Part shown: positions 44,696 through 62,570 of the stretch, piece by piece
Layout: each line of letters starts with the position of its first letter
Position numbering within the stretch: the stretch's first letter is position 1
Source of the DNA: Peribacillus loiseleuriae
Lineage (GTDB): Bacteria; Bacillota; Bacilli; Bacillales; DSM-1321
Length of the DNA stretch: 64,000 bases
Assembly (NCBI RefSeq): GCF_001183985.1
Contig: NZ_LFZW01000001.1
Span: forward strand, 462,206-526,205
Direction: 5' to 3'
Notes under the pieces: model-generated
Told to the model about the DNA's origin: nothing
Seen by the model: the letters and a program-made list of their open reading frames with translations, nothing else
The model's database searches: none
Translations under genes and position numbers: made by a program

Positions 44696-44792
44696 AATTC
44701 CTCCATGTTTTAGTTAATCCAAACAAAATATTCAGAAAATAATCCTCGTATTTTATACGTTAAACACGAAGCTTTCAAGAGTCAAGTTCAGT

Positions 44793-44824
44793 TATAATTA
44801 AATCATAAATTGAAAGCGTTTTCT
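44793..44824 (+). promoter_or_regulatory. Promoter -10 and perfect CcpA cre site before glycerate kinase
   Basis: TATAAT at 44793-44798 is followed by TGAAAGCGTTTTCT at 44811-44824, which fits the cre consensus TGWAARCGYTWNCW at all 14 positions. The site lies just downstream of the expected start of transcription, so CcpA would block initiation or elongation. A small CGTAT/ATACG inverted repeat at 44747-44759 could be a CdaR operator. Confidence 0.75.
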
Positions 44825-44840
44825 AGAAAGGGGGGAGATT

Positions 44841-46007: not shown

Positions 46008-46080
46008 AGGAATCGAAGAAGCTTAGGTGGGGACTAACCATCAGTGGGTATGAAAGACCCCCCACTGATAGAAGGTTCAC
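45961..46080 (-). repeat. Dispersed CGGGATAAA-type repeat, copy B
   Basis: In minus orientation it starts GTGAACCTTCTATCAGTGGG and ends GTTAATGCGGGATAAA. It contains two hairpins: CCCCACCT (45990-45997) with AGGTGGGG (46025-46032), and ATCAGTGGG (46040-46048) with CCCACTGAT (46061-46069). It covers the end of the glycerate kinase gene and the gap to the permease gene. Confidence 0.65.
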
Positions 46081-46118
46081 TGTATCATCAACTAAATAGA
46101 TAAAGGGAGGTTTGGCAT

Positions 46119-47243
46119 ATGAAAATCAAAAAAACGATAGAAAAAGTTCCGGGTGGATTAATGGTCGTTCCTCTTTTGTTTGGGGCGTTACTAAATACCA
46201 TCGATCAAATGCATATCCCTTTTGTCATGAATTTCTTGAAGACGCTTGGGGTCGCTCAAACACCAGATGGATTTTATGAATTTTTACGAATCGGTGGGTT
46301 TTCGGAGGCATTATTTAAAAATGGTTCGCTGGTATTAATAGCACTTTTTCTCTTCTGTGCTGGAAGTCAAATGAACTTGAAAGTAGGTGGGAGAGCACTT
46401 AAGAAAGGTGTCTTGCTCACATCTTCAAAATATTTAACCGGTCTTACAATAGGACTACTATTTGGAATCTTTTTCGATCCAATGGATGGGATTCTTGGCT
46501 TGTCTACATTGGCTATTATTGCCGCTATGACAAATGGAAACGGTGGAATGTATGTAGCATTGACGGGTCAATATGGAAACCGTTCGGATGTTGGCGCAGT
46601 GTCAGTTCTATCTTTAAACGATGGTCCATTCCTCACTCTTATGTCTTTAGGTTTATTAGGTTCTAGTTTTCCGGTCATCGCTTTTATCGCTGTTTTACTG
46701 CCAATTGGTTTAGGGATGTTACTTGGAAATTTAGATCCTGAAATCCGAGCTTTTTTAAAGCCAGGAGAAATCCTACCAGTTCCATTCTTCGCCTTTGCTT
46801 TGGGGGCGGGGATGAATCTTGCTAACTTCTTCAACCCATCCGTTGTTGCTGCAGGTCTTACAATCGGAATTTTAACAACGGTCCTTACTGCTACGACAGG
46901 TATTCTAGTATTCAAGTTATTCAAAGAAAAAAGTTATATCGGTCCTGTTGCTGAAGCATCGACAGCAGGAAATGCCGCAGCTACCCCTGCAGCGATAGCA
47001 GCTGCATCCGCAGTTGCAGCGAGTTCTGGCATGATGAGTAATGCGGAGGCTGCTAGCTATGCAAGTATAGTAAACGTTGCTACCGCGCAAATCTCAATCG
47101 CTACCTTAACGACTGCTATTTTGTGTCCAATCGCTGTTATTTTAGTAGATAAATATCAAAAGAAGCGTGGTATCGATGGTACGATTGAAGGCCCAGGTCC
47201 AAATAATGATATCAACAAAGTGACTCATTCATCTATCAATTAA
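46119..47243 (+). CDS. kdgT: KdgT-family 2-keto-3-deoxygluconate-type permease
   Basis: A 374-residue permease with about ten helices, opening KKTIEKVPGGLMVVPLLFGALLN and with MTNGNGGMYVALTGQYG and EASTAGNAAATPAAIAAA, hallmarks of the KDGT family. The type member takes up 2-keto-3-deoxygluconate with protons. Given the neighbours, glycerate or another hydroxy acid is a plausible substrate here. AAAGGGAGG is seven bases upstream of the ATG. Confidence 0.88.
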   Translation: MKIKKTIEKVPGGLMVVPLLFGALLNTIDQMHIPFVMNFLKTLGVAQTPDGFYEFLRIGGFSEALFKNGSLVLIALFLFCAGSQMNLKVGGRALKKGVLLTSSKYLTGLTIGLLFGIFFDPMDGILGLSTLAIIAAMTNGNGGMYVALTGQYGNRSDVGAVSVLSLNDGPFLTLMSLGLLGSSFPVIAFIAVLLPIGLGMLLGNLDPEIRAFLKPGEILPVPFFAFALGAGMNLANFFNPSVVAAGLTIGILTTVLTATTGILVFKLFKEKSYIGPVAEASTAGNAAATPAAIAAASAVAASSGMMSNAEAASYASIVNVATAQISIATLTTAILCPIAVILVDKYQKKRGIDGTIEGPGPNNDINKVTHSSIN

Positions 47244-47437
47244 AAGGATTTCTAAAAGGGGCTGCCATTGAAATATTAACGTAGTTTAAGATGTTAATAG
47301 ACAATATATGAATTGTATATAAAGTAGTTGTGGTGTCCGTTTTTGGTTCGGACACCCTCTAGTCTTTTTACTTAAAGCCACTCTTTTTTTGAATGTTTAC
47401 TTCGCTACTTTTATTTTTATAGGGAAAGGAAATAGAT

Positions 47438-48700
47438 ATGAAAACAAATTTATTGTACGGAAAAGACGGATTATTACTTGATTTACCTGATGATGTATTC
47501 TTGGTTGAGCCAAACAATCTATTGGGAATGGAGGAAGAAAAAGAGGCGGTCACACATGCTCTTAGAAATCCAATAGGTGCTCGCTCCCTTAAGGAAACCG
47601 TTAAAGCGACAGATACGGTCGCGATTGTTATCAGTGATATTACAAGACCAACTCCTAATCATAAACTAGTTCCTTGGCTGATTGAGGAGTTGAGCCATGT
47701 TCCACTAGAGAATTTTGTCATTATAAACGGCACTGGCACCCATCGGGACCAAACAAGTGAAGAGTTTGTTTTGATGCTTGGTGAATGGGTCGTAGACAAT
47801 ATTCGTATCATCAATAATAATTGCCATGATAAAGAAACATTAGTTAATTTGGGGCAGAGCAAGTTTGGTTGTGATGTTTATTTAAATAAAGAGTATGTGG
47901 AAGCTGATTTTCGGATTGTAACAGGTTTTATTGAACCCCATTTTTTTGCCGGGTTTTCTGGAGGACCTAAAGGCATTATGCCGGGGATTGCTGGGATAGA
48001 GACAATCATGACATTTCATAATGCAAGAATGATCGGGGACCCCCTATCAACATGGGGAAATATGGAGAACAACCCTGTTCAAGAAATGACGCGTGAAATA
48101 AATCAAATGTGTAAACCAGACTTCATGTTGAACGTCACTTTAAATAAAGACAAAGAAATAACAGCTGTATTTGCTGGTGAATTATATGAAGCACATGACA
48201 AGGGGTGTGCGTTTGTTAAGGAACATGCGATGATACAGTGCGCAAAACGATTTGATGTAGTCATTACATCAAATTCAGGCTACCCTCTTGATCAAAATCT
48301 TTATCAAGCGGTGAAGGGGATGAGCGCCGCGCATAAAATCGTGAAAAAAGGAGGCGCAATTATTATTGCATCCGAATGTTCAGATGGGCTTCCGAGCCAC
48401 GGCAACTATTCGAAGATTTTTGACATGGCGAAAAGTCCTCAAGAGTTATTAGATTTGATAAGCAGTCCTGAATTTAAAATGTTCGATCAATGGCAAGTTC
48501 AAAAACAGGCGGTTATTCAAGTGTGGGCGGATGTATATGTTTATTCTAAACTTACGGATGAGCAAGTGAAGGGCGCCATGCTAAAAAGCACGGATAACAT
48601 TGAACAAACGCTTGAGGAATTAAAACAGATTTATGGTGAGGATATGTCGATAGCTGTTTTGCCTTTGGGTCCACTAACGATACCTTATGTAGAAGAGTAA
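47438..48700 (+). CDS. larA: LarA-family nickel-pincer 2-hydroxyacid racemase/epimerase
   Basis: A 420-residue LarA homologue. Catalytic and pincer-cofactor residues are all in place: His102 (GTGTH), His168 (EPHFF), Lys178 (GGPKGIMPG, covalent link to the nickel-pincer nucleotide) and His194 (TFHNARM), each six positions below the Lactobacillus plantarum numbering. It should racemise or epimerise a 2-hydroxy acid. Its neighbours (glycerate kinase, KdgT-like permease, CdaR) suggest glycerate or a sugar acid rather than lactate. The cofactor genes larB, larC and larE are not in the window. Confidence 0.88.
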   Translation: MKTNLLYGKDGLLLDLPDDVFLVEPNNLLGMEEEKEAVTHALRNPIGARSLKETVKATDTVAIVISDITRPTPNHKLVPWLIEELSHVPLENFVIINGTGTHRDQTSEEFVLMLGEWVVDNIRIINNNCHDKETLVNLGQSKFGCDVYLNKEYVEADFRIVTGFIEPHFFAGFSGGPKGIMPGIAGIETIMTFHNARMIGDPLSTWGNMENNPVQEMTREINQMCKPDFMLNVTLNKDKEITAVFAGELYEAHDKGCAFVKEHAMIQCAKRFDVVITSNSGYPLDQNLYQAVKGMSAAHKIVKKGGAIIIASECSDGLPSHGNYSKIFDMAKSPQELLDLISSPEFKMFDQWQVQKQAVIQVWADVYVYSKLTDEQVKGAMLKSTDNIEQTLEELKQIYGEDMSIAVLPLGPLTIPYVEE

Positions 48701-49095: not shown

Positions 49096-50457
49096 TTAAA
49101 TAATTACATGCTTGCTTTTCGCTTCTTTTATCCATAACGGAAATTCATTGAGTAATTTATTATACAAATCATGGTCACTCTCATTCTCGATGTCGACGAT
49201 CTGAAAAAAGTTTGCATTGTCGATGAAGCGGCCTTCTAAATTGTCGAGCTTCTTAAGGACGTCAAAGTTTCCGTTACCAATTCCGACGAACTGCCAAAAC
49301 AAGGGCTGATTGGATGATTCAATCAATACTTTTGAAACATTGTCTTGTTTCCGGCTTGCCTTCTTCACGCCGCCATCATTGATGAAAATCAAATAGACCG
49401 GTACCTCGCTTGTTTCTTCTTCTAAATATTTTTGTAATACATCTCTCATAACAGGTGGTTCATTATTGGCACCAAACTTTTTTACTGTTGGATTAGAAAG
49501 GATTTCGCGTTCGATATAATCAGTGAAGTCGTTCTCGGTAATCGAAGGCATCCGTGTGAATTCATTGTCATAAATCCATACGTCTAAGACGCCGTCATCA
49601 TCGAAGCGGGTTGCCAATGCAAGGAGCCTTTCAATAACGTTTTGAACGGTGCCGTTTTGATAAAGCCTGCGCATCGAACCTGATATATCAAGGACCACTC
49701 CTACTCGGGAAATTCCTTTCTGTAGTGCCTTTTTCTCCAACGCGATATCGACTTTTTTCTTGAGCAGGTCAAAACTAGTGAGTTTTAACGGCTCGGTTAT
49801 TTGAACAGGCTCGGGCACCGGTTTAGGAGTCTCCTCGGTTTCCTCGTGATAAAGATCCAAGAATTCCTGAAGCCCGGCATTATACCCTCTGCCAACTGGA
49901 TTAAAACGCCAGTCATCGTCCTTGTTGTAAATATTCCCTAGTTCACAAGCTGTTTCGTCATGGAACTGATTTTCGGTAAAGGAAATGAGGGTGTCGTTTG
50001 TGTCAAAGTCTTCAAGGGTCATGTGGATGGAGCGAAAGTGCTGGAAGCTTTGATTTTTTTCAGCAGCATTATGTATGGTCAGGACGAAGAGTAGTTCTTG
50101 AATGTCGCTCCTTATGTAGGGCATGTCCAGGGTCATATGTTGCTTCGCTGCATTGTGCATTTGATTTGCCAAGATAAGAGACTTGTCCGGAGATACCCGC
50201 TGGTTATAAAAGATAAAGTACTCTTCAAGAGGAATTTTTCGCTGTTCATTTAACATAAATACGGATACGTCAACATCGTATTGGCTACTCTCATAGGGAG
50301 TGGAAATATCCCATGCTATAGTAATGCGCCATTTTTTCGTGTGCGGGTATTGTTTGCTCAGATTCATTCTCTGGCCTTTAACTAAGGTAAGTATACGAAC
50401 ACATCCTTCAATAATCTTCTTTTCATTGTACACGAAAGGGTCAATTGTTTGATACAT
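49096..50457 (-). CDS. TerD-VWA protein (TerF/TerY-like)
   Basis: About 453 residues. An N-terminal TerD domain (LVKGQRMNLSKQYPHTKKW, NIYNKDDDWRFNPVGRGYNAGL) is joined by a Pro/Glu-rich linker (TEETPKPVPEPVQ) to a C-terminal VWA domain with the MIDAS motif DISGSMRR. Such proteins act in Ter complexes that sense metals. The start is uncertain: ATG 50457 has no good ribosome site, and an in-frame TTG at 50502 is also possible. A site AAGGAT followed by an out-of-frame GTG lies near 50401, so an N-terminal frameshift cannot be excluded. Divergent from yceG. Confidence 0.8.
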   Translation of the reverse strand: MYQTIDPFVYNEKKIIEGCVRILTLVKGQRMNLSKQYPHTKKWRITIAWDISTPYESSQYDVDVSVFMLNEQRKIPLEEYFIFYNQRVSPDKSLILANQMHNAAKQHMTLDMPYIRSDIQELLFVLTIHNAAEKNQSFQHFRSIHMTLEDFDTNDTLISFTENQFHDETACELGNIYNKDDDWRFNPVGRGYNAGLQEFLDLYHEETEETPKPVPEPVQITEPLKLTSFDLLKKKVDIALEKKALQKGISRVGVVLDISGSMRRLYQNGTVQNVIERLLALATRFDDDGVLDVWIYDNEFTRMPSITENDFTDYIEREILSNPTVKKFGANNEPPVMRDVLQKYLEEETSEVPVYLIFINDGGVKKASRKQDNVSKVLIESSNQPLFWQFVGIGNGNFDVLKKLDNLEGRFIDNANFFQIVDIENESDHDLYNKLLNEFPLWIKEAKSKHVII

Positions 50458-50637
50458 ATATATCCAAAAGTCAGTAACTTCAATGAAACCTTTTGCGGGC
50501 AAATACGTTATAATAGATACAAGAGTTTTTCAGTGATTTTTGACAGCCTAGACCCTTAAAGCTGTGCCATCTGAATTGGTAGGCATGCGTAGGTTGAACA
50601 AAGAGCTTAGCGCTTTTCTTTGAAAGGAGATTTGTCA

Positions 50638-52260
50638 GTGGGTGCATTTGGTCAATACGCAAAGATCAATCCGGTATTGATCGATTTTACAGAAGATGAA
50701 TGGAAACAATTAATCGAAAAGAAACGCTTAGAAAGAGATAATTTCCGAAGCGGTGAACCCTTCATTAGCTTTGGGCAAGTGGCGGCTCGTTTTTTAGGTA
50801 TTCCCCGAGATGAGGATGATTATTATCTTACATTATTTACATTATCTCAAAACCCTCATGTATACGTCTGGAATGACCGTTTAAACAAAGAAAATGATCC
50901 CGAGAAATTTCATGCACTTCAAGAAGTGCTACAAATAAACCAAAGTGAACAGCTTTCCGTTAATCGATTTATTGCTTTTCTTGAAGGGAGACAGCTTATT
51001 CCGTCTCATGAAGATACTTCGATTCATCGGCATATACGTGAAAGTTTCAATAAAACATTATCCCAATTTGTCGAACAACATGAATCAGGATTTAAGCATC
51101 CTGATTTTCGCAGGGTGATTAGCGATTTAATTAAATGGCTTTGGAACCATGTTGATGAAATCCTTAGTAAACTAGATGAAGGAGAAGTTCCAGTTGTTTT
51201 ATGGTATGGCGACGCAACGAAAAGCGAACTTTATTTCTTATCATTTATTCTAAATTTAGGCTTTGATTTATTAATATTCCATCCACTAGGGTCTGATATC
51301 TTCAAAGAACTAGATCCAGAACGGAAGCAAATGATTGTTCAGGATTTTCAAGTAAAAAAAGAACCAAGACCTTTTCCAACACAGCGCCCGGATCGTAGGG
51401 CAACGGTTGCGTATCAGGCATCTAAGGAAATTGAGCGGATTCTACACACTGAAGAGACGCCTATATTCAAGCCTTGGCAGTATCGTTCCCATTTCCCTGT
51501 TTCCATCACACTAAAAACAACGTATGATGAATTATTTTTAATGAGCAGGGAAAGAGCGTTCATTAGACCGAACTTTAAAATTGAAGGAAATGAAGTGCAT
51601 ATACCTTCCCTATTCGCGAAGGTATCCGGCGTGATAACGAATAGAAGTGAGTATTGGGGGAAAGTTGAGGAGCTAAAAGGTGGCGATCTATCGCTGTTTA
51701 TCCGTTATTTTCCTTTTACAAACAGCATCAATGGCAATTACCTCTATCATTATCAGCATGCACTTTCCGATGATGGGGTACTAGATCCAAAAAAAATGAT
51801 TAATAGCGTATGGTGGAAATTAAAGCAATTGCCACTTGGTGTCCAAGAAGCAATTGCTGCGGGAATTTCAAGAGTTTGTGCGCACCCTAAGCTTCTTCGT
51901 GAGCATCATGAGACGATAGAGGATGTTCAATTGTATTTATTTACACAGCTTACTGTATTGCCCGAGTCTATTGTTGGATTGTTACTTAAATTTGATTATC
52001 CACAGTTTGTTCCGAGAATTATTTTGTATAATAGCGGTTCCGGAAATGGATTAGCACGTTCAGATACTGCGTTATTGCTTTTGTTAAATGAGTTGGGTTT
52101 TGATATCATTCTCCTTAATCCATCAGGACTTAGAGATTTAGAGCTTTACCTAGATGAACAATATTATGATGTACATTTAATGGATCAATTTGAATTTAAT
52201 TATGAATATAAAGAACCAAAAAAACCGATATGGCGCCGTCTTTTCAAAAAAGATACGTAA
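50638..52260 (+). CDS. yceG: YceG-family Ter-cluster protein
   Basis: A 540-residue cytoplasmic protein of the YceG family, always found with TelA/YceH and TerD genes in Bacilli. Recognisable parts are FISFGQVAARFLGIPRDEDD, VVLWYGDATKSELYFLSF, LLLKFDYPQFVPRIILYN and GNGLARSDTALLLLLNELGF. The biochemical role is unknown. AAAGGAG (50623-50629) is eight bases before GTG 50638, which decides the start. It is 16 bases before telA. Confidence 0.85.
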   Translation: MGAFGQYAKINPVLIDFTEDEWKQLIEKKRLERDNFRSGEPFISFGQVAARFLGIPRDEDDYYLTLFTLSQNPHVYVWNDRLNKENDPEKFHALQEVLQINQSEQLSVNRFIAFLEGRQLIPSHEDTSIHRHIRESFNKTLSQFVEQHESGFKHPDFRRVISDLIKWLWNHVDEILSKLDEGEVPVVLWYGDATKSELYFLSFILNLGFDLLIFHPLGSDIFKELDPERKQMIVQDFQVKKEPRPFPTQRPDRRATVAYQASKEIERILHTEETPIFKPWQYRSHFPVSITLKTTYDELFLMSRERAFIRPNFKIEGNEVHIPSLFAKVSGVITNRSEYWGKVEELKGGDLSLFIRYFPFTNSINGNYLYHYQHALSDDGVLDPKKMINSVWWKLKQLPLGVQEAIAAGISRVCAHPKLLREHHETIEDVQLYLFTQLTVLPESIVGLLLKFDYPQFVPRIILYNSGSGNGLARSDTALLLLLNELGFDIILLNPSGLRDLELYLDEQYYDVHLMDQFEFNYEYKEPKKPIWRRLFKKDT

Positions 52261-52276
52261 GAAAGAGGGATCAAGA

Positions 52277-53371
52277 ATGCAGATTAATAGTACAGAAATA
52301 CTTGATGAGAACACGAATCAGCTGTCACTTAATAAAACGGAAGAAATTAAGCTGAAGCTTCGCCAGGAACCGGAAGTACAGAAGCTGGCTCAGCAAATAG
52401 ATGTGAAAAATCAGATTTCGTTGCTGGAGTTCGGTAAAGAGCCAGCTGTTGAAATTTCGAAGTTCTCAGATCGTATTTTAGGTACGATGAAAGCTAGTTC
52501 AATGGAAGATTCCAGTGAATTATTGAAGCAACTAGGTAAGGTAATGGATCAGTTCGATCGGAAGGATTTTGCCCAAGAGAAGAAGGGTTTGTTTGGAAAG
52601 TTGTTCAATAAGGGCGAGAAAATGATTGAAAAGATATTTGGAAAATATCAAACAATGGGCGGTGAAATCGATAAGATTTACGTTGAAATCTCCAAATACC
52701 AAAATGAAATGATGACATCAACGAACACGCTAGAACAAATGTATGAACAAAACTTTAATTATTACCTTTCTCTTGAAAAATATGGTGTGGCAGGTGCTAT
52801 GAAGGCAGAGGAATTGAAAACAACATTACTGCCGCAATATGAAGCAAGAGCCATAGCAGGAGACCAAATTGCAGCGATGGAATTAGAAACATTGCGAAAT
52901 GGTATTGAAACGCTAGAACAACGGGTATATGACTTGGAAATGGCGAAGATGGTTGCATTGCAGACAGCGCCACAAATCCGATTACTTCAAAGAGGGAACA
53001 CGAAGCTGATTGGAAAAATTAATTCTGCCTTTGTTACAACCATTCCAATTTTTAAAAATGGATTAATCCAAGCGGTATCTGCCAAACGTCAAAAGCTTGT
53101 TGCTGATTCAATGAGTGAGCTTGATCGCAGAACGAATGAAATGCTTGTGCGAAATGCACAAAATATTTCTTCACAAAGCACAGAGATTGCAAGACTTGCA
53201 GGAGCACCGAGTATCAAAATTGAAACAATTGAAGAGTCATGGAACATTATTATTAATGGACTGGAAGAAACAAAGAAAATTGAGGATGAAAATAAACGGA
53301 CGCGTGAAGAAGGTACAAAACGATTAATTGAACTAAAGGAAAGCTTTCAAGCAAGACAACTGAAAAGTTAA
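52277..53371 (+). CDS. telA: Toxic anion resistance protein TelA (YceH)
   Basis: A 364-residue TelA/KlaA-family protein, mostly helical, with the typical LMKASSMEDSSELLKQLGKVMDQFD-like start region and PQIRLLQRGNTKLIGKINSAF near the centre. TelA proteins contribute to resistance to tellurite and peptide antibiotics by an unknown route. GAGGGA is six bases before ATG 52277. It follows yceG closely and precedes the three TerD genes. Confidence 0.93.
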   Translation: MQINSTEILDENTNQLSLNKTEEIKLKLRQEPEVQKLAQQIDVKNQISLLEFGKEPAVEISKFSDRILGTMKASSMEDSSELLKQLGKVMDQFDRKDFAQEKKGLFGKLFNKGEKMIEKIFGKYQTMGGEIDKIYVEISKYQNEMMTSTNTLEQMYEQNFNYYLSLEKYGVAGAMKAEELKTTLLPQYEARAIAGDQIAAMELETLRNGIETLEQRVYDLEMAKMVALQTAPQIRLLQRGNTKLIGKINSAFVTTIPIFKNGLIQAVSAKRQKLVADSMSELDRRTNEMLVRNAQNISSQSTEIARLAGAPSIKIETIEESWNIIINGLEETKKIEDENKRTREEGTKRLIELKESFQARQLKS

Positions 53372-53461
53372 GAGTATTATTATTTGTTCCATTGGAAGAA
53401 TGATGATAGAATAAAAAATAAATAAAACACGCTGGCGTGAGTTGGCAAGGGAGTGTTTCTG

Positions 53462-54073
53462 TTGGCGATTTCATTACAAAAAGGACAAAAAGTAGACCTT
53501 ACAAAAGGCAGAGCCGGTTTATCATCCATAACAGTAGGCTTAGGATGGGACCCAGTGAGTGCTGGTAAGCCAAAAGGGATTTTGGGAGGATTGTTTGGTG
53601 GAGGAAGTACTCCAAACATTGACTGTGATGCTTCTGCCATCCTTTTGGACAAGAATGGAAAATTAACGAGTAAAAATAACTTGATCTACTTCGGTAATAA
53701 AACAAGTGGGGATGGAAGTATAAAACATACAGGTGATAACCTAACAGGAGATGGTGATGGTGATGATGAGCAAATCATCGTTGACTTAAACCGTGTGTCA
53801 CCTAATGTAGAAAAGATTGTATTCGTCGTGAATATTTACGGCTGTGTACAAAGAAAACAAGATTTCGGAATGATTCAAAATGCCTTTATCCGTTTGGTGG
53901 ATAATTCAAACGGCCAAGAATTAATCCATTTTAATCTGACTGATAACTACGCGGGATTAACTTCATTATTTGTTGGAGAAATCTATCGCCACAACGGTGA
54001 GTGGAAATTTAACGCAATCGGAGACGGTACAAAAGATACATCCATTTCTGAGATTGCAAATAAGTATGCGTAA
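53462..54073 (+). CDS. terD: TerD-family protein 1 (YceC-like)
   Basis: A 203-residue Ter[19 protein letters not shown], a Gly-rich insert (GILGGLFGGGST) not found in the other copies, CDASAILLDKNGKL and the Ca-binding [17 protein letters not shown]. Relative to the next two copies the [11 protein letters not shown] motif is changed (DFGMIQNAFIR). TTG 53462 lies eight bases after AAGGGAG. It is likely a divergent partner in a TerD hetero-complex. Confidence 0.88.
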   Translation: MAISLQKGQKVDLTKGRAGLSSITVGLGWDPVSAGKPKGILGGLFGGGSTPNIDCDASAILLDKNGKLTSKNNLIYFGNKTSGDGSIKHTGDNLTGDGDGDDEQIIVDLNRVSPNVEKIVFVVNIYGCVQRKQDFGMIQNAFIRLVDNSNGQELIHFNLTDNYAGLTSLFVGEIYRHNGEWKFNAIGDGTKDTSISEIANKYA

Positions 54074-54115
54074 TTTTTTTGTAAAAAAAATCTAATAAAG
54101 TGAGGGAAAATAATT

Positions 54116-54694
54116 ATGGCTATTTCATTAAGCAAAGGACAAAAGGTAGATTTAACAAAAGGGAATCCAGGACTGAAAAATTTAATTATTGGTTTAGGCT
54201 GGGATACAAACAAGTATGATGGTGGACATGATTTTGATTTGGATTCTTCTGTGTTTTTACTAAACGCTACTGGAAAAGTAAGTTCTGAAAAAGATTTTGT
54301 ATTCTTTAACAATCTTCAAGGTGGTAACGGTTCTGTCATACATACAGGAGATAACCTTACAGGAGAAGGTGATGGAGACGATGAGCAAATTAAAATCGAC
54401 TTAAGCCTGGTACCAGCCGAGATTGAAAAAATTGCTTTTACGATTACGATCCACGATGCAGAAGCTCGCGGTCAAAACTTTGGTCAAGTATCGAACGCAT
54501 TCGTACGTGTTGTAAATGAACAAGGCAATACAGAACTTATTCGCTATGATCTTGGAGAAGATTTCTCGATTGAAACAGCTGTTGTTGTTGCGGAATTGTA
54601 CCGTCACAATGGCGAGTGGAAGTTCAATGCAATTGGTAGTGGCTACCAAGGTGGTTTGGCTGCACTGGTAACTGACTATGGTTTATCTGTATAA
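54116..54694 (+). CDS. terD: TerD-family protein 2 (YceD-like)
   Basis: A 192-residue canonical Ter[40 protein letters not shown] (first Ca site), [20 protein letters not shown] (second Ca site), [13 protein letters not shown] and [20 protein letters not shown]. TerD domains bind calcium and are thought to form soluble stress-response assemblies near the membrane. It is 42 bases after TerD 1. Confidence 0.94.
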
Positions 54695-54742
54695 CCTTTA
54701 ATATCTTCCAAAATAAGATCAAAAAAAAAGAGAGTTTCTTCT

Positions 54743-54787
54743 GATAGCCCCTTCACCTTTAATGAACTTTGTTGAAGGGGGATTATC
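54743..54787 (+). repeat. Hairpin between the second and third TerD genes
   Basis: CCCCTTCA (54748-54755) and TGAAGGGG (54773-54780) pair, with partial GATA/TATC pairing outside. There is no T tract, so it may tune expression of the last TerD gene. Confidence 0.45.
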
Positions 54788-54815
54788 TTTATGTGAAATA
54801 GAAGGGATGATGTAG

Positions 54816-55394
54816 ATGTCCATTTCATTATCAAAGGGGCAACGAATTGATTTAACTAAAACAAATCCAGGTTTGACACGTGCTGTTATCGGTCTAGGCT
54901 GGGATACGAATAAATATAGTGGCGGTTATGATTTTGATCTTGATGCCTCGGCATTTTTAGTTGATCAAAATGATAAATGCACCAACGATCTTGATTTCAT
55001 TTTTTATAATAATTTGCAAGATCCGAGTGGTTCTGTCCTACATACAGGTGATAATCGTACAGGTGAAGGTGATGGGGATGATGAGCAGATTAAAATAGAT
55101 TTTAATAAAGTTCCTGCAAATATCCATAAGATTGCAATCACTGTTACGATTCATGACGCATCTGCGCGTAGCCAAAACTTTGGTCAAGTGTCTAATGCAT
55201 TTGTGCGCGTTGTAAACGAAGATACAAATGTAGAAGTTTTACGTTATGATCTTGGAGAAGATTTCTCGATAGAAACGGCAGTTGTGATTTGTGAGTTATA
55301 CCGTCACGGTTCTGATTGGAAATTTAATGCAATTGGCAGCGGGTTCTCAGGCGGCTTGGCTTCATTGTGTCAAAACTATGGTTTATCTGTTTAA
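54816..55394 (+). CDS. terD: TerD-family protein 3 (YceE-like)
   Basis: A 192-residue TerD close to TerD 2: [82 protein letters not shown] precedes the ATG. In Bacillus subtilis the corresponding gene is followed by TerC (yceF); here no TerC gene follows and the unit ends with a hairpin. Confidence 0.94.
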
Positions 55395-55501
55395 ACGATA
55401 CACATATATCTTATAACGATTTTGTCACTGCAACTTTAAGAACCATTGTTAATTTAGGAAGTGCAAGAAAAAGCAGTACATTCATAATTGTTCCAAATGT
55501 C

Positions 55502-55532
55502 AAAAGGGTGAACACATTTGTGTTTCCCTTTT
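55502..55532 (+). terminator. Terminator-like hairpin after the TerD genes
   Basis: AAAAGGG and GAACACA pair with TGTGTTT and CCCTTTT with a one-base bulge and a very short loop; the right arm is T-rich. Confidence 0.6.
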
Positions 55533-55537
55533 CGTCA

Positions 55538-55585
55538 TTTATCCCGCATTAATGGGAAGTAAAATCCCGCTGATTGAAGTTTCAC
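55538..55585 (-). repeat. Dispersed CGGGATAAA-type repeat, copy C
   Basis: In minus orientation it runs from GTGAAACTTCAATCAGCGGG to CATTAATGCGGGATAAA. This is the shortest full copy, only six bases after the terminator hairpin. Confidence 0.6.
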
Positions 55586-56022
55586 TATAGCATTTGAATG
55601 GGAAATGTTGTGTTGTGGCTAAATGAAGTAGGTGTGGTTTTCGTAAAAAGTAATAAAGTATAGGATTTTCATATGCTTTGAGGCTGGGGACTACGGGATG
55701 TAGCTAGCGTTCTGCTTACTAGTTGATGGCGAAATGTTGGCAAATTCCGCCTTCGTGGTTTAATCCCTGATATCTTCGAGCGAAGGATGTGTGAATCTTA
55801 GGTGGTCTTCTTATGCTAAAAGAATCTTTCGCTTTTAAGACAAACAAGAAATAGGGAGAGAAAACAAAAAGGCTCTCCCTATTTCTTGCTTGTCTTATAC
55901 TAGACTTTAGGTTGACCAAGATACTTACGCTGTCTTAAGTGAAAATAAAGTATACGTTTTTTTAATGGTTTTTAGTAACTAACCTTACACCGGTGACAGT
56001 TTTTGTGATAGGAGGTAGCAGT
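55586..56022. other. Leader region of the Ter biosynthetic module
   Basis: This 437-base stretch has no gene. Its main feature is a very long hairpin at 55837-55896, and a small CTTCG-AGCGAAG inverted repeat near 55770. The promoter of the downstream four-gene module should be between the hairpin and 56010 but I could not fix it. Confidence 0.5.
55837..55896. repeat. Very long hairpin upstream of the biosynthetic module
   Basis: Bases 55837-55860 pair with 55873-55896 at 23 of 24 positions; the core AAGAAATAGGGAGAG is perfect. The loop is A-rich (12 bases). No T tract follows on either strand, so it is not a plain terminator. Confidence 0.7.
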
Positions 56023-57219
56023 TTGAAGCATTTTAATTATTTAACAAAGGATCGTGAAGAGAAAACCTTTTATCGAATGCCGATGGAATTTTCTAAAGAC
56101 AGTGAGAAAGAATTGCTGGCACTTACGCTTGGAGCTTGCTTGTATATGCCTGGCACTCGTCCAAATATTTGCGCTGATATAGTTAATCAGAAGCATGATG
56201 GTTTAGTGTCTATGGTCCTTTGTCTTGAAGATGCTGTAAGCGATCATGAAGTGTATCAGGCAGAAATGAATGTAATTGCTCAGCTTCAACAGCTCCATAT
56301 GCAGATTGAATCGGGATTATTTTCAACGGGTGAACTGCCAATCATTTTTATTCGTGTGAGAAATGAAGAGCAAATGAGAAATGTAGCGGAGCATCTTGGT
56401 AGCTCCATACATGTGCTAACTGGCTTTGTTTTTCCAAAATTCACAGCTGAAAATGGGACGGGTTATATTGCGGCTCTTCGTGACTTAAATGAGCAATATA
56501 GCATTCGATTATATGGGATGCCGATTCTTGAATCAGCTGAAGTTATCTATAAGGAATCGAGAATCACTTCATTATTAAGCATAAAGAAGCTGCTTGATGA
56601 ACATTATGATTGCATCTTAAATGTCCGGATGGGAGCAACTGACTTTTGTGGATTATATGGCATAAGAAGAAGTAGTGATTCGACGATTTATGATATTTCG
56701 GTTGTCAGAGATTGTATTGCCGATATCGTGAATGTATTTGGCCGAAGTGAAAAAGAGTATGTTGTGTCGGGGCCTGTATGGGAGTACTTTTATAAAGAGG
56801 AACGAGTACTTAAACCGCAGCTTCGCCAAACTCCTTTTACGAACAGTCTTGGTAAAGAAGGCATATCGATTCGTAAAGAATTCTTAAATGAATATTTGGA
56901 CGGATTGATTCAGGAAATATTGCTGGACAAAAACAATGGACTTACTGGGAAAACTGTCATTCATCCGACCCATATAAAGCCTGTTCACGCGTTTTCCGTT
57001 GTCTCCTATGAAGAATATATGGATGCCATTAGTATATTAGAGGGAATAGGTGGAGAATCGGGTGTGCTGAAAAGTCAATTTTCCAATAAAATGAATGAAA
57101 TGAAGCCCCATTATAATTGGGCAATAAAAATCGTTAGCAAAGCGAAAATATACGGGGTGTATCATGAACAATGCTCATACATTGATTTACTCACAGAGCA
57201 AGAACAGGTCCATATTTAA
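56023..57219 (+). CDS. HpcH/HpaI-CitE-like C-C bond lyase of the Ter module
   Basis: A 398-residue protein of the pyruvate/PEP-aldolase TIM-barrel class related to citrate lyase beta: CLYMPGTRPNI, MVLCLEDAVSDHE (metal-binding Glu/Asp), NVRMGATDFCGLYG and the C-terminal GKTVIHPTHIKPV. It is expected to cleave or form a C-C bond in a predicted nucleoside-like metabolite pathway. TTG 56023 is six bases after GGAGGT, preferred to an upstream GTG. It overlaps the next gene by 56 bases. Confidence 0.85.
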   Translation: MKHFNYLTKDREEKTFYRMPMEFSKDSEKELLALTLGACLYMPGTRPNICADIVNQKHDGLVSMVLCLEDAVSDHEVYQAEMNVIAQLQQLHMQIESGLFSTGELPIIFIRVRNEEQMRNVAEHLGSSIHVLTGFVFPKFTAENGTGYIAALRDLNEQYSIRLYGMPILESAEVIYKESRITSLLSIKKLLDEHYDCILNVRMGATDFCGLYGIRRSSDSTIYDISVVRDCIADIVNVFGRSEKEYVVSGPVWEYFYKEERVLKPQLRQTPFTNSLGKEGISIRKEFLNEYLDGLIQEILLDKNNGLTGKTVIHPTHIKPVHAFSVVSYEEYMDAISILEGIGGESGVLKSQFSNKMNEMKPHYNWAIKIVSKAKIYGVYHEQCSYIDLLTEQEQVHI

Positions 57220-58588
57220 TATATTAGATTCTTTAGCTGTAACAGTTGAGGTAACGGAAGATCCTTATGAACTGCCTTTAGACCATTTCTTCGGAATGGC
57301 TGCCCGAAAGAATAAGAAACGTGGCTTTTTGTTTGTTAGCAAAATTCTGGGCAAGCATATTCCAGTAGCGCCGGTTACATCTTTGTTAAGTGGTGCGTTA
57401 TTAGCGATGCGTTATTTAGAAACGGTACATGACCATCCAATAGAGGGAAGAAAAGCTGCGGTTGAAGCGTTGTTATCAGGAAGTAGGCAAGAAGAAATCT
57501 ATCAATCTCTCATGGATGATCCATTTCCTTTAGCTGAAGAAACACTTTTTATCGGCTTCGCTGAGACTGCGACAGCACTTGGACATAGTGTATTTGATTT
57601 ATTTAATAATGCCCATTATCTTCATACGACAAGAGAGCAAATCGTCGGGCTACAGTCGAGCATAGAATTTGAAGAAGAACACTCTCATGCGACTGAGCAA
57701 GCGTGCTATGGAAATAAAGAACTGTTGCAGAAAGATGGTCCGATCGTACTTGTTGATGATGAAATTACTACAGGAAAAACCGCGTTAAATATTATTGAAT
57801 CCATTCATGCAGCATATCCTCGTCGAGAGTATGTCGTCTTATCTCTTTTGGATTGGCGTTCAGAAGCAAACAAAGAAGCGTACGCGAAATTAGAAGCAAA
57901 GCTGGGAATCCGCATTCGAACCGCAACATTATTGGCAGGTATGATTAAGGTAGATGGAAATCCTGTTGATACGGAAGGTTACTATGAATATACCAATTCC
58001 GATGCTGCAGTTGAAACGGAGATTCACTCTATCAATCTATCAGAATATGAGAACTTTAAACAGATTGATGATGTTGAGTATGTATCTATTAGTAGTGAAG
58101 GACATGTGAATAAAGTTCCTTATTCCGGAATGACAGGACGCTTTAATGGAATATCATCAACGGATCGTCCAAGTATTGATGATTATGCATTTCATGTGGG
58201 AGTGGGTCTTAAGCAAACCCGTTCTGGCGGAAAAACGTTATGTCTAGGGACGGGTGAATTTATGTATCTTCCAATGAAAATCGCTTCATATATGGGTAAG
58301 GATGTCTTTTATCAATCGACGACGAGAAGTCCGATTCATCGAATTGATAAAGAGGGGTATGCTGTGACAAGTGGGTTTGACTTTGTGAATCCGGATGATT
58401 CGGCGATCACAAATTATTTTTACAATATCCCGTACAAAAGCTACCAAGACATCTATCTATTTCTCGAGCGTAAAGTAACAGAGGTTCGCCTGGAATCTTT
58501 ATTAGAAAAAATCAAACAAGTCGGTGCAGAGAGGCTCTTTGTTGTGACCGTGAATTCTCAGCAGAAAGGAGAAAGTCATGCCGATTAA
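57164..58588 (+). CDS. Phosphoribosyltransferase-TRSP domain protein
   Basis: A 474-residue protein with an N-terminal type I phosphoribosyltransferase domain (PRPP loop VLVDDEITTGKTA, about residues 195-207) and a C-terminal TRSP domain (GLKQTRSGGKTLCLGTGEF, YQSTTRSPIH). The TRSP domain is named after such a Thr-Arg-Ser-Pro segment. The family is found in Ter-linked biosynthetic sets and is predicted to put a base-like group on ribose-5-phosphate. It overlaps genes on both sides, so translation is coupled. Confidence 0.88.
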   Translation: MNNAHTLIYSQSKNRSIFNILDSLAVTVEVTEDPYELPLDHFFGMAARKNKKRGFLFVSKILGKHIPVAPVTSLLSGALLAMRYLETVHDHPIEGRKAAVEALLSGSRQEEIYQSLMDDPFPLAEETLFIGFAETATALGHSVFDLFNNAHYLHTTREQIVGLQSSIEFEEEHSHATEQACYGNKELLQKDGPIVLVDDEITTGKTALNIIESIHAAYPRREYVVLSLLDWRSEANKEAYAKLEAKLGIRIRTATLLAGMIKVDGNPVDTEGYYEYTNSDAAVETEIHSINLSEYENFKQIDDVEYVSISSEGHVNKVPYSGMTGRFNGISSTDRPSIDDYAFHVGVGLKQTRSGGKTLCLGTGEFMYLPMKIASYMGKDVFYQSTTRSPIHRIDKEGYAVTSGFDFVNPDDSAITNYFYNIPYKSYQDIYLFLERKVTEVRLESLLEKIKQVGAERLFVVTVNSQQKGESHAD

Positions 58589-59699
58589 ACAAAATTTTCC
58601 GATTACGCCAATGGGCAGTTATCCACCTGAAGATGTGACGTTTTTATTAAAAGATCTAAGTGGAGTCATAGAGGAGCGGGGAACAGAGGAACGGGAAGAA
58701 GCGATTCAATCTGGTGTTCATTACTCTGAAATGTTGCCGATTGAATACAAGCCGACATCTGAATACATGGAAGTGTATCAAAAAGCATTGGGAGAATATG
58801 CTGAAAAACTGGCGGTGGCAATAGGCGTGGTGGCGGAAGAGATTCTTGCAAAGAAGGGGCGGAATTTGATTCTAGTTTCGTTAGCAAGAGCAGGTACTCC
58901 GATTGGCATCCTAATTAAGCGTTATTTGTCATTCGCTTATAACTTGGATGCGCCTCATTACAGTGTTTCTATCATCCGTGGTAAAGGAATTGATGAGCGG
59001 GCGATATGTTACATTAAAGAGAATCATCCAGATAGCCAGATTCAGTTTATTGATGGGTGGACAGGTAAAGGGGCAATTAGTCGTGAATTAACACAAGCTT
59101 GCCAAAACATAAATGACAAGTTTGGTTATCATCTTGATGACGGTCTTGCTGTGTTAGCTGACCCAGGTTATTGTTCTGAAATTTATGGAACGAGAGAGGA
59201 CTTCTTGATACCGAGTGCTTGTCTGAATTCAACTGTTTCAGGTCTTGTAAGCCGTACGGTTCACAATAAAGCATATATTTCTGATCAAGACTTTCACGGT
59301 GCAAAATATTATCGTCATCTTGAAGAGGAAGATGTGTCAAATGAATTTATTGCAACCATCGTGAAAGAGTTTCCTAGGGCTGGACGGGATATTCAAACTC
59401 AGCTTGATAAAATTCGTTCGGAGCACACGACGCCAAATTGGTCAGGGGCGGCTTGTGTGAAAAAGATACAAGTTGATTTTTTAATCGATGATATAAATCA
59501 TGTAAAGCCTGGAGTTGGGGAAACGACTCGTGTTTTATTGCGAAGAGTTCCTTGGAAGATTCTCGTGAAAGACCGACATGACGAGCGATTGAAACATATT
59601 ATCCTACTTGCCAAAGATCGTGGGGTTCCGATTGAAGAGTATAAAGATATGTCATATACGTGCTGCGGACTAATCAAGTCATTGAGGAAGGAACTATGA
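58578..59699 (+). CDS. stiP: StiP-family protein (PRTase-like/PELOTA)
   Basis: A 373-residue protein of the StiP family: LVSLARAGTPIGILIKRYL, a PRPP-type loop QFIDGWTGKGAISREL, then a C-terminal PELOTA-like RNA-binding part (IDDINHVKPGVGETTRVLLR). It is annotated in databases as a tellurite-like stress cysteine protease, but the sequence looks like a PRTase fold with a nucleic-acid-binding domain. Its start overlaps the previous gene by 11 bases, with AAAGGAG before it. Confidence 0.85.
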   Translation: MPIKQNFPITPMGSYPPEDVTFLLKDLSGVIEERGTEEREEAIQSGVHYSEMLPIEYKPTSEYMEVYQKALGEYAEKLAVAIGVVAEEILAKKGRNLILVSLARAGTPIGILIKRYLSFAYNLDAPHYSVSIIRGKGIDERAICYIKENHPDSQIQFIDGWTGKGAISRELTQACQNINDKFGYHLDDGLAVLADPGYCSEIYGTREDFLIPSACLNSTVSGLVSRTVHNKAYISDQDFHGAKYYRHLEEEDVSNEFIATIVKEFPRAGRDIQTQLDKIRSEHTTPNWSGAACVKKIQVDFLIDDINHVKPGVGETTRVLLRRVPWKILVKDRHDERLKHIILLAKDRGVPIEEYKDMSYTCCGLIKSLRKEL

Positions 59700-60511
59700 T
59701 TTTTGCAAGTGATCTGGACCAAACGTTGATTTACTCGATTCGTTCAATGAGGCTTTCACAAGGATGCCCGGTACCCGCGATGCGTGTTGTTGAAAAGCGG
59801 GGCAAACGGGAAATCTCTTATATGACTTTAGCGGCAATTGAATTATTAAAAAGGGTTGCTGACAAGATGATGTTTCTTCCGGTTACAACAAGAACGGTAG
59901 AACAGTTTCGATATATTACTCTATTCCAAGAGGGAATCGTCCCGTCTTTTGCAGTGACTAGTAATGGTGGAAATATTCTTGTTAAAGGCAAAATAGATGA
60001 AGAGTGGCAGAGACTAATTAAAGTGAAGCTGAAAAATGAGGCATTAAACGGAGAAAAGATACTTGAACATTTTAGTGAAATAGCTAACGACGAGTGGGTT
60101 CATTCCCAACATACGGCAGATGGATTGTTTCATTATTGTTTGATTGAGCGTGACTCGGCTCCGTTGGATGAATTGATCCATTTCAAAGAACTAATCGATC
60201 AACAAGGCTGGAAAATGTCTCTGCAAGGTCGTAAGCTTTATTTTGTACCAAAAGCGGTGAATAAATGGGATGCAGTCGCTTATATTAAAGAAAAAAGCAA
60301 TCGAGAATTTGTGGCAGCAGCGGGAGATTCGCTACTTGATCTGCCTATGCTTGAGGTTGCGGACTATGCAATTGCGCCGATCCACGGAGAGTTGAGTGAA
60401 GTCGGGAATCCTGTAGTGAAGGGAACAATCTACCGAACAGAGCAAAAAGGAATCCTAGCAGCTGAAGATATATTGAATCAAGTCTTGCAAATTTATAAAG
60501 AACGTCTATAG
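59696..60511 (+). CDS. HAD-superfamily phosphatase of the Ter module
   Basis: A 271-residue HAD hydrolase: motif I SDLDQTLIY (Asp6/Asp8), motif II PVTTRTVEQF, a Lys before motif IV, and AAGDSLLDLPML. It resembles sucrose-phosphatase-like enzymes and should dephosphorylate the pathway product. ATG 59696 overlaps the stiP stop (ATGA) and follows GAGGAAGGA. Last gene of the four-gene coupled module. Confidence 0.88.
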   Translation: MIFASDLDQTLIYSIRSMRLSQGCPVPAMRVVEKRGKREISYMTLAAIELLKRVADKMMFLPVTTRTVEQFRYITLFQEGIVPSFAVTSNGGNILVKGKIDEEWQRLIKVKLKNEALNGEKILEHFSEIANDEWVHSQHTADGLFHYCLIERDSAPLDELIHFKELIDQQGWKMSLQGRKLYFVPKAVNKWDAVAYIKEKSNREFVAAAGDSLLDLPMLEVADYAIAPIHGELSEVGNPVVKGTIYRTEQKGILAAEDILNQVLQIYKERL

Positions 60512-60525
60512 TTGTTTTGTATAAA

Positions 60526-60611
60526 GTGAAGCTTCCATCAAAGGGGGCTTCTTTACCGCTCTTCTTATTTTTCATGAAAAGTAAGGGGGCATCCTGTTAA
60601 ATCGGGATAAA
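60526..60611 (+). repeat. Dispersed CGGGATAAA-type repeat, copy D
   Basis: It runs from GTGAAGCTTCCATCAAAGGG to GTTAAATCGGGATAAA, with a longer middle than copies A and C. It lies between the HAD gene and the small HTH gene. Confidence 0.6.
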
Positions 60612-60636
60612 ATGCCAATCAAGAAGGTGTTTTCAA

Positions 60637-60879
60637 TTGATCAACCTATTTAAAAAACAACCTAATCTAGATAGCCGAAACATATTAAGCTCTAGTGAAG
60701 CATGCAAAGAATGGGGCATTGACTCTTCGACGTTAAGAAGGAGAATCCATGATTTCCCTCATGGAACCATTCGTAAATTTGGAACATCATGGGTGGTCAC
60801 TCGTGAAGGAATGTATGCGGTATTTGGTGAAAAGAAAACTCAAGCGAGCTTCGACAGCTGGAAATCTGAGTATAAGTAA
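60637..60879 (+). CDS. Small helix-turn-helix protein
   Basis: An 80-residue protein with a MerR/excisionase-like helix-turn-helix (LSSSEACKEWGIDSSTLRRR) and a following wing-like part (HGTIRKFGTSWVVTREGMYAVFG). It may regulate the nearby Ter genes, but it could equally be an unrelated small regulator. The start is a TTG after AAGGTG. A very strong terminator follows. Confidence 0.7.
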   Translation: MINLFKKQPNLDSRNILSSSEACKEWGIDSSTLRRRIHDFPHGTIRKFGTSWVVTREGMYAVFGEKKTQASFDSWKSEYK

Positions 60880-60880
60880 G

Positions 60881-60928
60881 AAAACAAACGGAAGACTCTT
60901 TGGATAGAGTCTTCCGTTTGTTTTTATG
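60881..60928 (+). terminator. Strong terminator after the HTH gene
   Basis: Nineteen-base perfect arms (core CAAACGGAAGACTCT, 60881-60899 with 60906-60924), a six-base loop and a T run. Confidence 0.93.
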
Positions 60929-60950
60929 GTGCCCAGCATGGGCACTTTTT
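60929..60950 (+). terminator. Second terminator hairpin
   Basis: GTGCCCA and TGGGCAC around GCA, then five T residues, directly after the previous terminator. Confidence 0.7.
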
Positions 60951-61015
60951 GCTTTACGTGTTGTCTAGAGTAAGTAGCGTAGTTTTCTAATGACTAATAA
61001 GTTCTTGCTTTTTTG

Positions 61016-62428
61016 TTAAGAAAGAAATTCAGCTGGATCAAGACCGAGTTCTCTACAAACTTCGCTGACAACGCGCTGTTCGTTTGCGTCGAAGTTACCA
61101 TCTGCGTAGCCGATCGCTATGCTATATCTTGCAATAAGGCGAGCGATTTCCGGTTTTGTTCGGACACGGCCTAATGCTTTGAAGGCTTCAGCACGGCCGA
61201 CAATCATATCGCGTTCGATTTTCTGAGTAAAGTTGTTGAATTGTGCGATCACTTTGTTTGTATCGAAGACCCGTAATTCTTCGCTTTGGTTGACAAAATC
61301 AATCATTTGTTGACGCTCAGATGGGTCTAAATGTCCGTCTGCCATTGAAACAAGTGCACAACCGGCAACAATTGCATCAAGTACATCCTGACTTTTATAT
61401 CGAGCGAATAAATTCTGTGCTTTCCGCTTTTGCTGCACGGCCCATTCGGAATAGTCGGTTTGATTCGGTGACCACGAATTGCCGCAACTGTTACAAGTTA
61501 GTTTCAATTGATTTTTTCCAATGAATCCGCCTAGCAATCCGACTGGACCGAGAATTAACCCGCCGACTGCTGCTTTACCAAGTCCGAATCCTTTTTGTCC
61601 AGTTCGAACATTGGTTGAATGGCAACGCGGGCATTGCAGTTCTTCTCCGCCGTATTGCTGTGAGGCTCCACCTCTTTGTGCTTGATTTTGCATAGGAGGT
61701 TGGTAGGTTTGTTGTTGATACGCGGGCTGATTACCATATGTATTGGTATTACCAAATCCCGTCTGTTGATTGCCGAACGCTTGCTGCTGGTGCGGCGAAG
61801 GGATAGGCTGCTGTTGATAAGGTTGTTGAACAATTGGAGGAGGTGCGGGTGCATCATCGACATTCACACCGAAGTTTCTACATAAAGCGGATAAACCGCC
61901 TTGGAAACCACTTGCAATGGCATTGAATTTCCATTCTCCGTTATGCCGATACAATTCTGCTGTTACGATTGCGGTTTCGACTGTGAAGTCTCTTCCGAGT
62001 TCGAACCGTATTAATTCCTCAAACGTTTGTGTGTTAAAAATTCTTACATAAGCATTGGCGACTTGTCCGAAATTTTGCTGCTTCATATGCGCATCATGAA
62101 TTGTGATTGTAAATGCGATACGATGGATCGCCTGCGGTACAAGATTTAAATCAATTTGAATTTGTTCATCATCTTGATGACCTGAACCTGTCCGGTTATC
62201 TCCGCTATATAGAATAGATCCGTTTCCTCCAGAAGGGTTATTGTAGAAAACAAAATCTGCATCGCTCGCTACTTTACCGTTAGCACCAGTTAAAAAGGCT
62301 GATGCATCTAAATCATAGCTAGCCCCAAAATTTCCGACATCCCATCCTAGCCCTACAACGACGTGTTGCAGTCCTGGATGGGTTTTGGTTAAGTCTACTT
62401 TCTGTCCTTTGCTTAGGGTTACGCCCAT
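61016..62428 (-). CDS. TerD-zinc ribbon-TerB fusion protein
   Basis: A 470-residue multidomain protein: TerD domain ([43 protein letters not shown]), a Gln/Pro/Tyr-rich low-complexity linker (about residues 193-270), a Cys4 zinc ribbon (CPRCHSTN and CNSCGNSW) with a Gly-rich hydrophobic segment between its halves, and a C-terminal TerB domain (ALVSMADGHLDPSERQ, IAIGYADGNFDANEQR) with its two acidic motifs. It may link calcium or metal sensing by TerD to TerB assemblies. ATG 62428 fits AAGGAG; GTG 62437 is too close to it. Confidence 0.9.
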   Translation of the reverse strand: MGVTLSKGQKVDLTKTHPGLQHVVVGLGWDVGNFGASYDLDASAFLTGANGKVASDADFVFYNNPSGGNGSILYSGDNRTGSGHQDDEQIQIDLNLVPQAIHRIAFTITIHDAHMKQQNFGQVANAYVRIFNTQTFEELIRFELGRDFTVETAIVTAELYRHNGEWKFNAIASGFQGGLSALCRNFGVNVDDAPAPPPIVQQPYQQQPIPSPHQQQAFGNQQTGFGNTNTYGNQPAYQQQTYQPPMQNQAQRGGASQQYGGEELQCPRCHSTNVRTGQKGFGLGKAAVGGLILGPVGLLGGFIGKNQLKLTCNSCGNSWSPNQTDYSEWAVQQKRKAQNLFARYKSQDVLDAIVAGCALVSMADGHLDPSERQQMIDFVNQSEELRVFDTNKVIAQFNNFTQKIERDMIVGRAEAFKALGRVRTKPEIARLIARYSIAIGYADGNFDANEQRVVSEVCRELGLDPAEFLS

Positions 62429-62570
62429 CGATTCCACGCTCCTTACATGATTATTCTTTTTGAAAAATATTACTATTATCGTACCACAAAAGCCTAGAGG
62501 TGTAATGGATTAATAACCTAATACGCCAAAGGTTGAATTTGTTATCTTGTTTGGAAAAAACAAACTGAAA

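Follow-up and report, generated by a model that had tools for sequence, protein, structure and literature searches.

What do the enzymes encoded among Ter stress genes make? This question is raised by a locus at positions 49096-62428 of a 64,000-nucleotide stretch of the Peribacillus loiseleuriae genome (contig NZ_LFZW01000001.1, positions 462,206 to 526,205; hereafter the window), in which a module of overlapping enzyme genes accompanies genes of the TerD family. Enzymes of such Ter systems were reportedly predicted by Anantharaman, Iyer and Aravind in 2012 to make a nucleoside-like compound. That compound is called a prediction in PMC8115787, and PMC12054061 words it as shown, citing only the 2012 study. 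Ter loci range from soil Bacilli to plasmids of the Enterobacterales, and the enzyme product is still a predicted one since 2012 in the literature searched, in which no report of it was found among titles and abstract openings, subscription journals being mostly outside. Our best reading is that the module probably builds a small ribosylated compound, via phosphoribosylation dependent on phosphoribosyl pyrophosphate (PRPP) and subsequent dephosphorylation by a HAD enzyme. The enzymes concerned, one of them a phosphoribosyltransferase (PRTase), are encoded as follows:

56023-57219, + strand: CitE/HpcH-like C-C bond lyase (PF15617, Pfam); TTG start after AGGAGG
57164-58588, + strand: PRTase_2 (residues 43-259) plus TRSP (residues 324-449), Pfam PF15609 and PF12500
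58578-59699, + strand: StiP, with a PRTase-fold domain (residues ~60-260, predicted model) and PELOTA_1 (residues 288-368), Pfam PF11202 and PF15608
59696-60511, + strand: HAD phosphatase (Pfam); ATG start within the ATGA overlap
42419-43459, + strand: ATP-grasp of the Ter biosynthetic pathway (PF15632, Pfam E 5.2e-43)

Gene calls were made from a list of open reading frames (ORFs) and Pfam matches over the 64-kb window, and all Ter and enzyme genes that an earlier note on this DNA had listed at 49096-62428 were recovered by both. Within its group the locus is unremarkable, but some details of its enzymes were previously overlooked or misnamed; the earlier note under-read four points, namely the ATP-grasp gene, the PELOTA domain, a recurring reading-frame overlap and TRSP.

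Association of the module with TerD

Co-occurrence of the module with TerD, chosen beforehand as a check on the proposed Ter connection, held in two sets of genomes. Amongst 239 genomes drawn across the phylum, StiP was found in 14 and TerD in 15, with TerD present in 14/14 StiP genomes (nominal Fisher P 1e-21); the one TerD-positive, StiP-negative genome (G066) gave a weak TerD match with an internal stop. Within the order, 150 genomes yielded StiP in 26 and TerD in 30, and 26/26 StiP genomes carried TerD (nominal Fisher P 3e-25). The P values are nominal because the genomes are related and because the window's own genome and G139 are in both draws. Of 14 named control genomes, only that of Deinobacterium chartae had a StiP match, and TerD was found there too.

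Relatives of the locus were taken as the best 80 of at least 571 confirmed loci, picked by PRTase likeness and with flanks of up to 9 kb, such that absences near the edges of these stretches are soft. All 80 of these PRTase-centred loci contained TerD, and 51 contained YceG and TelA. The converse association was looser: two of the four TerD-only genomes of the order draw (L139 and L140) have TerD, YceG and TelA, yet lack the module. They are thus of the type of the Bacillus subtilis TerD-TerC-YceG-TelA locus, which shares the TerD/YceG/TelA core with the window and is without the biosynthetic module; L139 is also without TerC in its stretch, and the B. subtilis control genome gave a TerD match and no StiP match. 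Across the sampled genomes, the module was thus always accompanied by Ter, whereas Ter also occurred without it.

Gene order and overlapping reading frames

The overlaps of 56 (57164-57219), 11 (58578-58588) and 4 (59696-59699) bases given for the four contiguous enzyme genes proved exact. The order lyase-PRTase-StiP-HAD recurred in 78/80 relatives (HAD was not found in the other two, one of which, L054, lies at a contig edge) and, in the phylum draw, in 13 of the 14 genomes with StiP, counting that of the window. One plasmid each of Enterobacterales and Pseudomonas was viewed, and both had a different order, ATP-grasp-PRTase-HAD-StiP-lyase, with an extra gene between ATP-grasp and PRTase in the Pseudomonas plasmid; in the Acinetobacter phage vB_AbaM_ME3 the order was PRTase-HAD-StiP, with the lyase not found. 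As the order differs in these plasmids and in the phage, all outside the Bacillota, the order of the pathway is not readable from that of the genes, and the earlier suggestion that it could be was not upheld.

The overlap of the lyase and PRTase frames recurred in 79/80 relatives: a candidate ATG in the PRTase frame lay 35-86 bases before the lyase end in 78/80 and at 4 bases in L107, with none in L075. In 20/81 loci, the window included, the stretch from the lyase stop to a point five codons ahead of the conserved core held no other start codon. The overlap frame was open across the last 45 lyase bases in 78/80 relatives versus 8-35 in controls, and an ATG 30-90 bases before the lyase end was present in 80/80 relatives versus 1-60 in controls, the latter comprising 13 gene-end/frame combinations with n=51-80 each. 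PRTase_2-TRSP and StiP were joined in one open frame in 7/80 loci (L048, L052, L054, L055, L088, L094 and L117). From this arrangement we infer that the module genes are probably co-translated.

StiP, PRTase_2 and TRSP as PRTase-like domains

The StiP of the window shares 97% identity with a P. loiseleuriae protein. The predicted model of StiP (predicted local distance difference test, pLDDT, 86.5) had a PRTase fold, in agreement with its earlier description as PRTase-like. Every listed fold match whose title named its molecule was a PRTase, PyrR or a CriT-bearing enzyme, some other titles giving no molecule name; CriT tied in Z at 11.3 over 198 aligned residues in the VIA search, and had no sequence match at E <= 1. 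Sequence searches returned no solved relatives of the four enzymes, StiP yielding nothing beyond chance L24 rows (E >= 0.1). The loop residues D159, G160, W161, G163 and G165 of StiP were invariant in 93/93 rows. For these conservation counts, 93 of 100 rows were utilised for PRTase and StiP after exclusion of seven fusions (>=520 aa), along with 97 for the lyase and 98 for HAD, from which none was dropped; the rows are mostly of Bacillota, and two (L045 and L129) represent the same phage. StiP also has a C-terminal PELOTA_1 domain by Pfam, which the earlier note had missed. On its predicted model StiP is regarded as PRTase-like rather than as a classical enzyme of type I.

The PRTase_2-TRSP model (pLDDT 90.6) likewise had a PRTase fold, with the PRPP motif VDDEITTGKT intact, such that the original assignment of this protein as a PRTase stood. 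For TRSP, moderate evidence makes it somewhat more probable than not that the domain is a degenerate second PRTase-like one. Its predicted elements (helix 332-350, strand 358, helix 368, strands 381, 404, 416 and 429, helix 440 and strand 457) follow the order of the PRTase half, minus the small helix 185-189 and the last helix-strand pair. Profile alignment paired the LGTGE and FAETAT loop regions, TTRSP with TTRE, and an F-x-E strand with VDDE. In hhalign, TRSP matched PRTase_2 with P 0.0043 and a score of 22.0 (20.8 with query and template swapped) at an HHalign probability of only 8-26%, compared with scores of <=18.2 in 150 column shuffles (0/150 reached 22.0) and <=19.4 in 32 decoy windows. 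Thirty profile rotations scored 15.4-26.2, and two inspected at 26.2 (P 7e-4) kept the register with a longer tail; with a narrower alignment P was 0.2. Profile comparisons of PRTase_2 and of TRSP with StiP were insignificant, by a method that misses the StiP-PRTase_2 relation suggested by the models, and the VIA fold search barely tested the TRSP part. No paper on a 'TRSP domain' was found in the literature searched.

Proposed route and competing explanations

In the route that we favour, the APRT-like PRTase_2 would take PRPP and attach ribose-5-phosphate to an acceptor, StiP, as a second PRTase-fold protein with a PELOTA domain, would act on the same pathway or its product, and the HAD enzyme would remove the 5-phosphate. 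The DxDxT motif of the latter (59696-60511) is intact, which bears out its description as a phosphatase. The dispensable parts would be the ATP-grasp ligase and the CitE-like lyase, which may prepare or decorate the acceptor. Sensing of the product by TerD and TerB is a published suggestion, made in PMC7824862 for phage ME3, whose Ter genes had already been reported there and whose PRTase/HAD product was suggested as the signal.

Several observations weigh against this route. The StiP loop, DGWTGKG (from D159), has one acid where two are usual and does not conform to the canonical PRPP motif, and the fold scores of StiP were modest (best Foldseek E 2.2e-4, TMt ~0.55 at most). TerD occurred without StiP in 4/30 TerD genomes of the order draw, from which it follows that TerD does not need the module, and the viral contig L127 (IMG/VR, 67.5 kb) encodes lyase, PRTase, StiP, HAD and ATP-grasp, and the 17 kb of it that were retrieved contained no TerD. 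A free metabolite would not require the widely kept PELOTA domain. The literature searched reports no product, substrate or assay of the module. Moreover, published pairs of PRTase and HAD act on polymers and not on free bases (PMC10299916 and PMC11127046), hence the acceptor could be something other than a free base.

It is possible, if unlikely, that the product is a ribosylated RNA or polymer. The StiP tie with CriT and the retention of PELOTA_1 in phage ME3 and in L127 fit this explanation, as do the use of PRPP by CriT and a HAD enzyme for O-linked ribofuranose (PMC10299916) and the description of glycan PRTase and HAD phosphatase as a two-step pair (PMC11127046). The CriT/CrpP and gPRT/PRP ribofuranosyltransferases resemble the module in likewise combining a PRTase-type enzyme with a HAD phosphatase on PRPP; they differ in making glycans, and the only tie to StiP observed was the fold match with CriT. 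Rit1 is a precedent for PRPP-dependent tRNA modification. Somewhat more doubtful is the proposal that the three PRTase-like folds (PRTase_2, degenerate TRSP and StiP) and the RNA-binding PELOTA form a machine that under stress ribosylates RNA or some other macromolecule in a PRPP-dependent manner, lyase and ATP-grasp being optional, and does not make free nucleosides.

Two further explanations concern StiP itself. It could be a PyrR-like, RNA-binding regulator that senses PRPP or nucleotides, leaving only PRTase_2 catalytic, given that PyrR is the name on 15 of the 25 best VIA rows and that PELOTA is a predicted RNA-binding domain; the invariant loop, the fusion to PRTase_2 in 7/80 loci and the phage carriage are no less consistent with an enzyme, and we consider such a role improbable. 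That StiP is a cysteine protease that processes Ter proteins, a notion which comes from its database names (Pfam and NCBI), is highly improbable: no cysteine of the window's StiP was conserved in all 93 rows (C215 in 88/93, C199 in 85, C362 and C363 in 84, others in <=52), the named fold matches were PRTase, PyrR or CriT-bearing enzymes, and a 2017 review counts two PRTases in the Ter system (PMC5512222). The StiP evidence suggests that the protease label be dropped from a large protein family.

A rearranged locus without terC

The locus is a rearranged Ter stress locus of Bacillota type with a biosynthetic module. The remaining features are:

49096-50502, - strand: TerD-vWA (TerF-like) protein (ORF and Pfam)
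50638-52260, + strand: YceG; GTG start after AAAGGAG, by eye (mechanical ORF from 50620)
52277-53371, + strand: TelA (PF05816); likely ATG start (mechanical ORF from 52190)
53453-54073, + strand: TerD 1 (ORF and Pfam)
54116-54694, + strand: TerD 2 (ORF and Pfam)
54816-55394, + strand: TerD 3 (ORF and Pfam)
55395-56022, no strand: gap of 628 bases in the usual terC slot, with one dispersed-repeat copy and a 25-bp hairpin
60637-60879, + strand: HTH_59 protein (Pfam)
61016-62428, - strand: TerD-zinc ribbon-TerB fusion; ATG start at 62428, GTG alternative at 62437

No TerC match below E 3.4 was obtained in the 64-kb window by tblastn with a Bacillus TerC query. The same query found TerC in 68/80 relatives (49/80 with an E. 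coli query), and in 66 of these it lay 3-391 bases before the lyase. YceG-TelA is upstream of the enzyme module here, and downstream of HAD in 49/51 YceG-bearing loci of the 80. With terC absent from its slot and YceG-TelA moved, the locus is not a 'complete' Ter locus, as it had been called. Four TerC-family matches were found elsewhere in the genome, two of which have identities of up to 75% to TerC of the locus type, and thus the function of TerC is not necessarily missing. Another TerD-domain protein, in an open frame of 432 aa, is also encoded elsewhere in the genome, at G000:C1:2642000-2642512 (L005, L042).

The gap contains, at 55538-55590, a dispersed repeat of ~53 bases, TTTATCCCGCATTAA.GGGCAGTAAA...CCACTGATTGAAGTTTCACTTTAT, with up to 45 further sites in the genome; besides the gap itself, 45/49 genome matches of the gap sequence (E <= 10) fell on this segment, some of them short and weak. 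Two long hairpins flank the biosynthetic module, at 55836-55897 (25-bp stem, 96% paired) and 60881-60924 (19-bp perfect stem). A scan of 44-64 kb at Rfam gathering thresholds gave 0 matches to known regulatory RNA, and scans for promoters and terminators gave no more than expected by chance. A pattern resembling extracytoplasmic function (ECF) sigma sites matched once in the window versus 0.85 expected, with none at the locus, and a sigma-B-like pattern matched 9 times versus 3.8 expected; three of the latter matches were in the Ter region, of which only 55579-55605 is upstream of a gene. An HTH_59-like gene directly precedes YceG in some relatives, and the zinc ribbon between TerD and TerB was recognised by eye from its CxxC...CxxC spacing only.

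The detached ATP-grasp gene

The ATP-grasp gene lies 13 kb from the lyase and does not share an operon with it, and its product is 51% identical to the Ter-linked ATP-grasp of locus L035. The four genes of the earlier 'four-gene module' are hence all present, but their number is too low, as there are at least five here with the Ter-type ATP-grasp (PF15632). A sugar-acid cluster (43604-48700) of Diacid_rec regulator, glycerate kinase, KdgT permease and LarA-like protein separates it from the Ter genes, and upstream of it, at 41081-41434 (- strand), is a 117-aa ORF resembling, by eye, a C-terminal fragment of a transposase. The nearest ATP-grasp of the order draw (57%, genome G361) was also on a different contig from StiP.

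ATP-grasp was found in 22/80 relatives; with respect to YceG, 6 of the 80 loci had both, 45 YceG alone, 16 ATP-grasp alone and 13 neither, a distribution that probably tracks ancestry and was not used as evidence. The ATP-grasp cut-off of 1e-40 was set after viewing the matches, and left out weaker ones (E 1.5e-37 or weaker) in StiP-negative genomes, three of the order draw and five of the phylum draw.

Minimal enzyme sets and related Ter systems

Phage ME3 encodes PRTase_2, HAD, StiP-PELOTA, TerD and a TerC-like gene, and differs from the window in that no lyase was found with two queries at E 1e-5; its PRTase had no TRSP match. Genome G189 has PRTase, StiP and HAD, with no PF15617 match and no Pfam PELOTA match on StiP. 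Since both keep PRTase, StiP and HAD without a lyase being found, lyase and ATP-grasp look accessory; PRTase, StiP and HAD are the smallest enzyme set seen. With StiP as PRTase-type, TRSP as a possible second PRTase-like half and a detachable ATP-grasp, this core suggests a concrete minimal set of enzymes.

Compared via Pfam and citing papers, the Ter system described in 2012 (Anantharaman, Iyer and Aravind) has the same families, PF15617, PF15609 with PF12500, PF11202 with PF15608, HAD and PF15632, linked to TerD, TelA and YceG, and the membership of the window's locus in it was confirmed by these families and the TerD link. The window differs in that terC is out of its usual slot, YceG-TelA is upstream and ATP-grasp is 13 kb away. 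The plasmid ter clusters of Enterobacterales (L044) and Pseudomonas (L141), one record each, have the same five enzymes beside TerD, TerC and TerB, but in another order, with ATP-grasp at the head and no YceG or TelA annotated in the stretch. StiP was found in 2567/72,556 plasmid records, most of them from Klebsiella, Escherichia, Enterobacter or Salmonella. In L141, positions 5885-7024 between ATP-grasp and PRTase are annotated as a trypsin-like peptidase, and an unannotated 15-kb 'Bacteriophage sp.' record (MT836648.1, 6260-9221) encodes the lyase on the strand opposite to that of StiP and PRTase.
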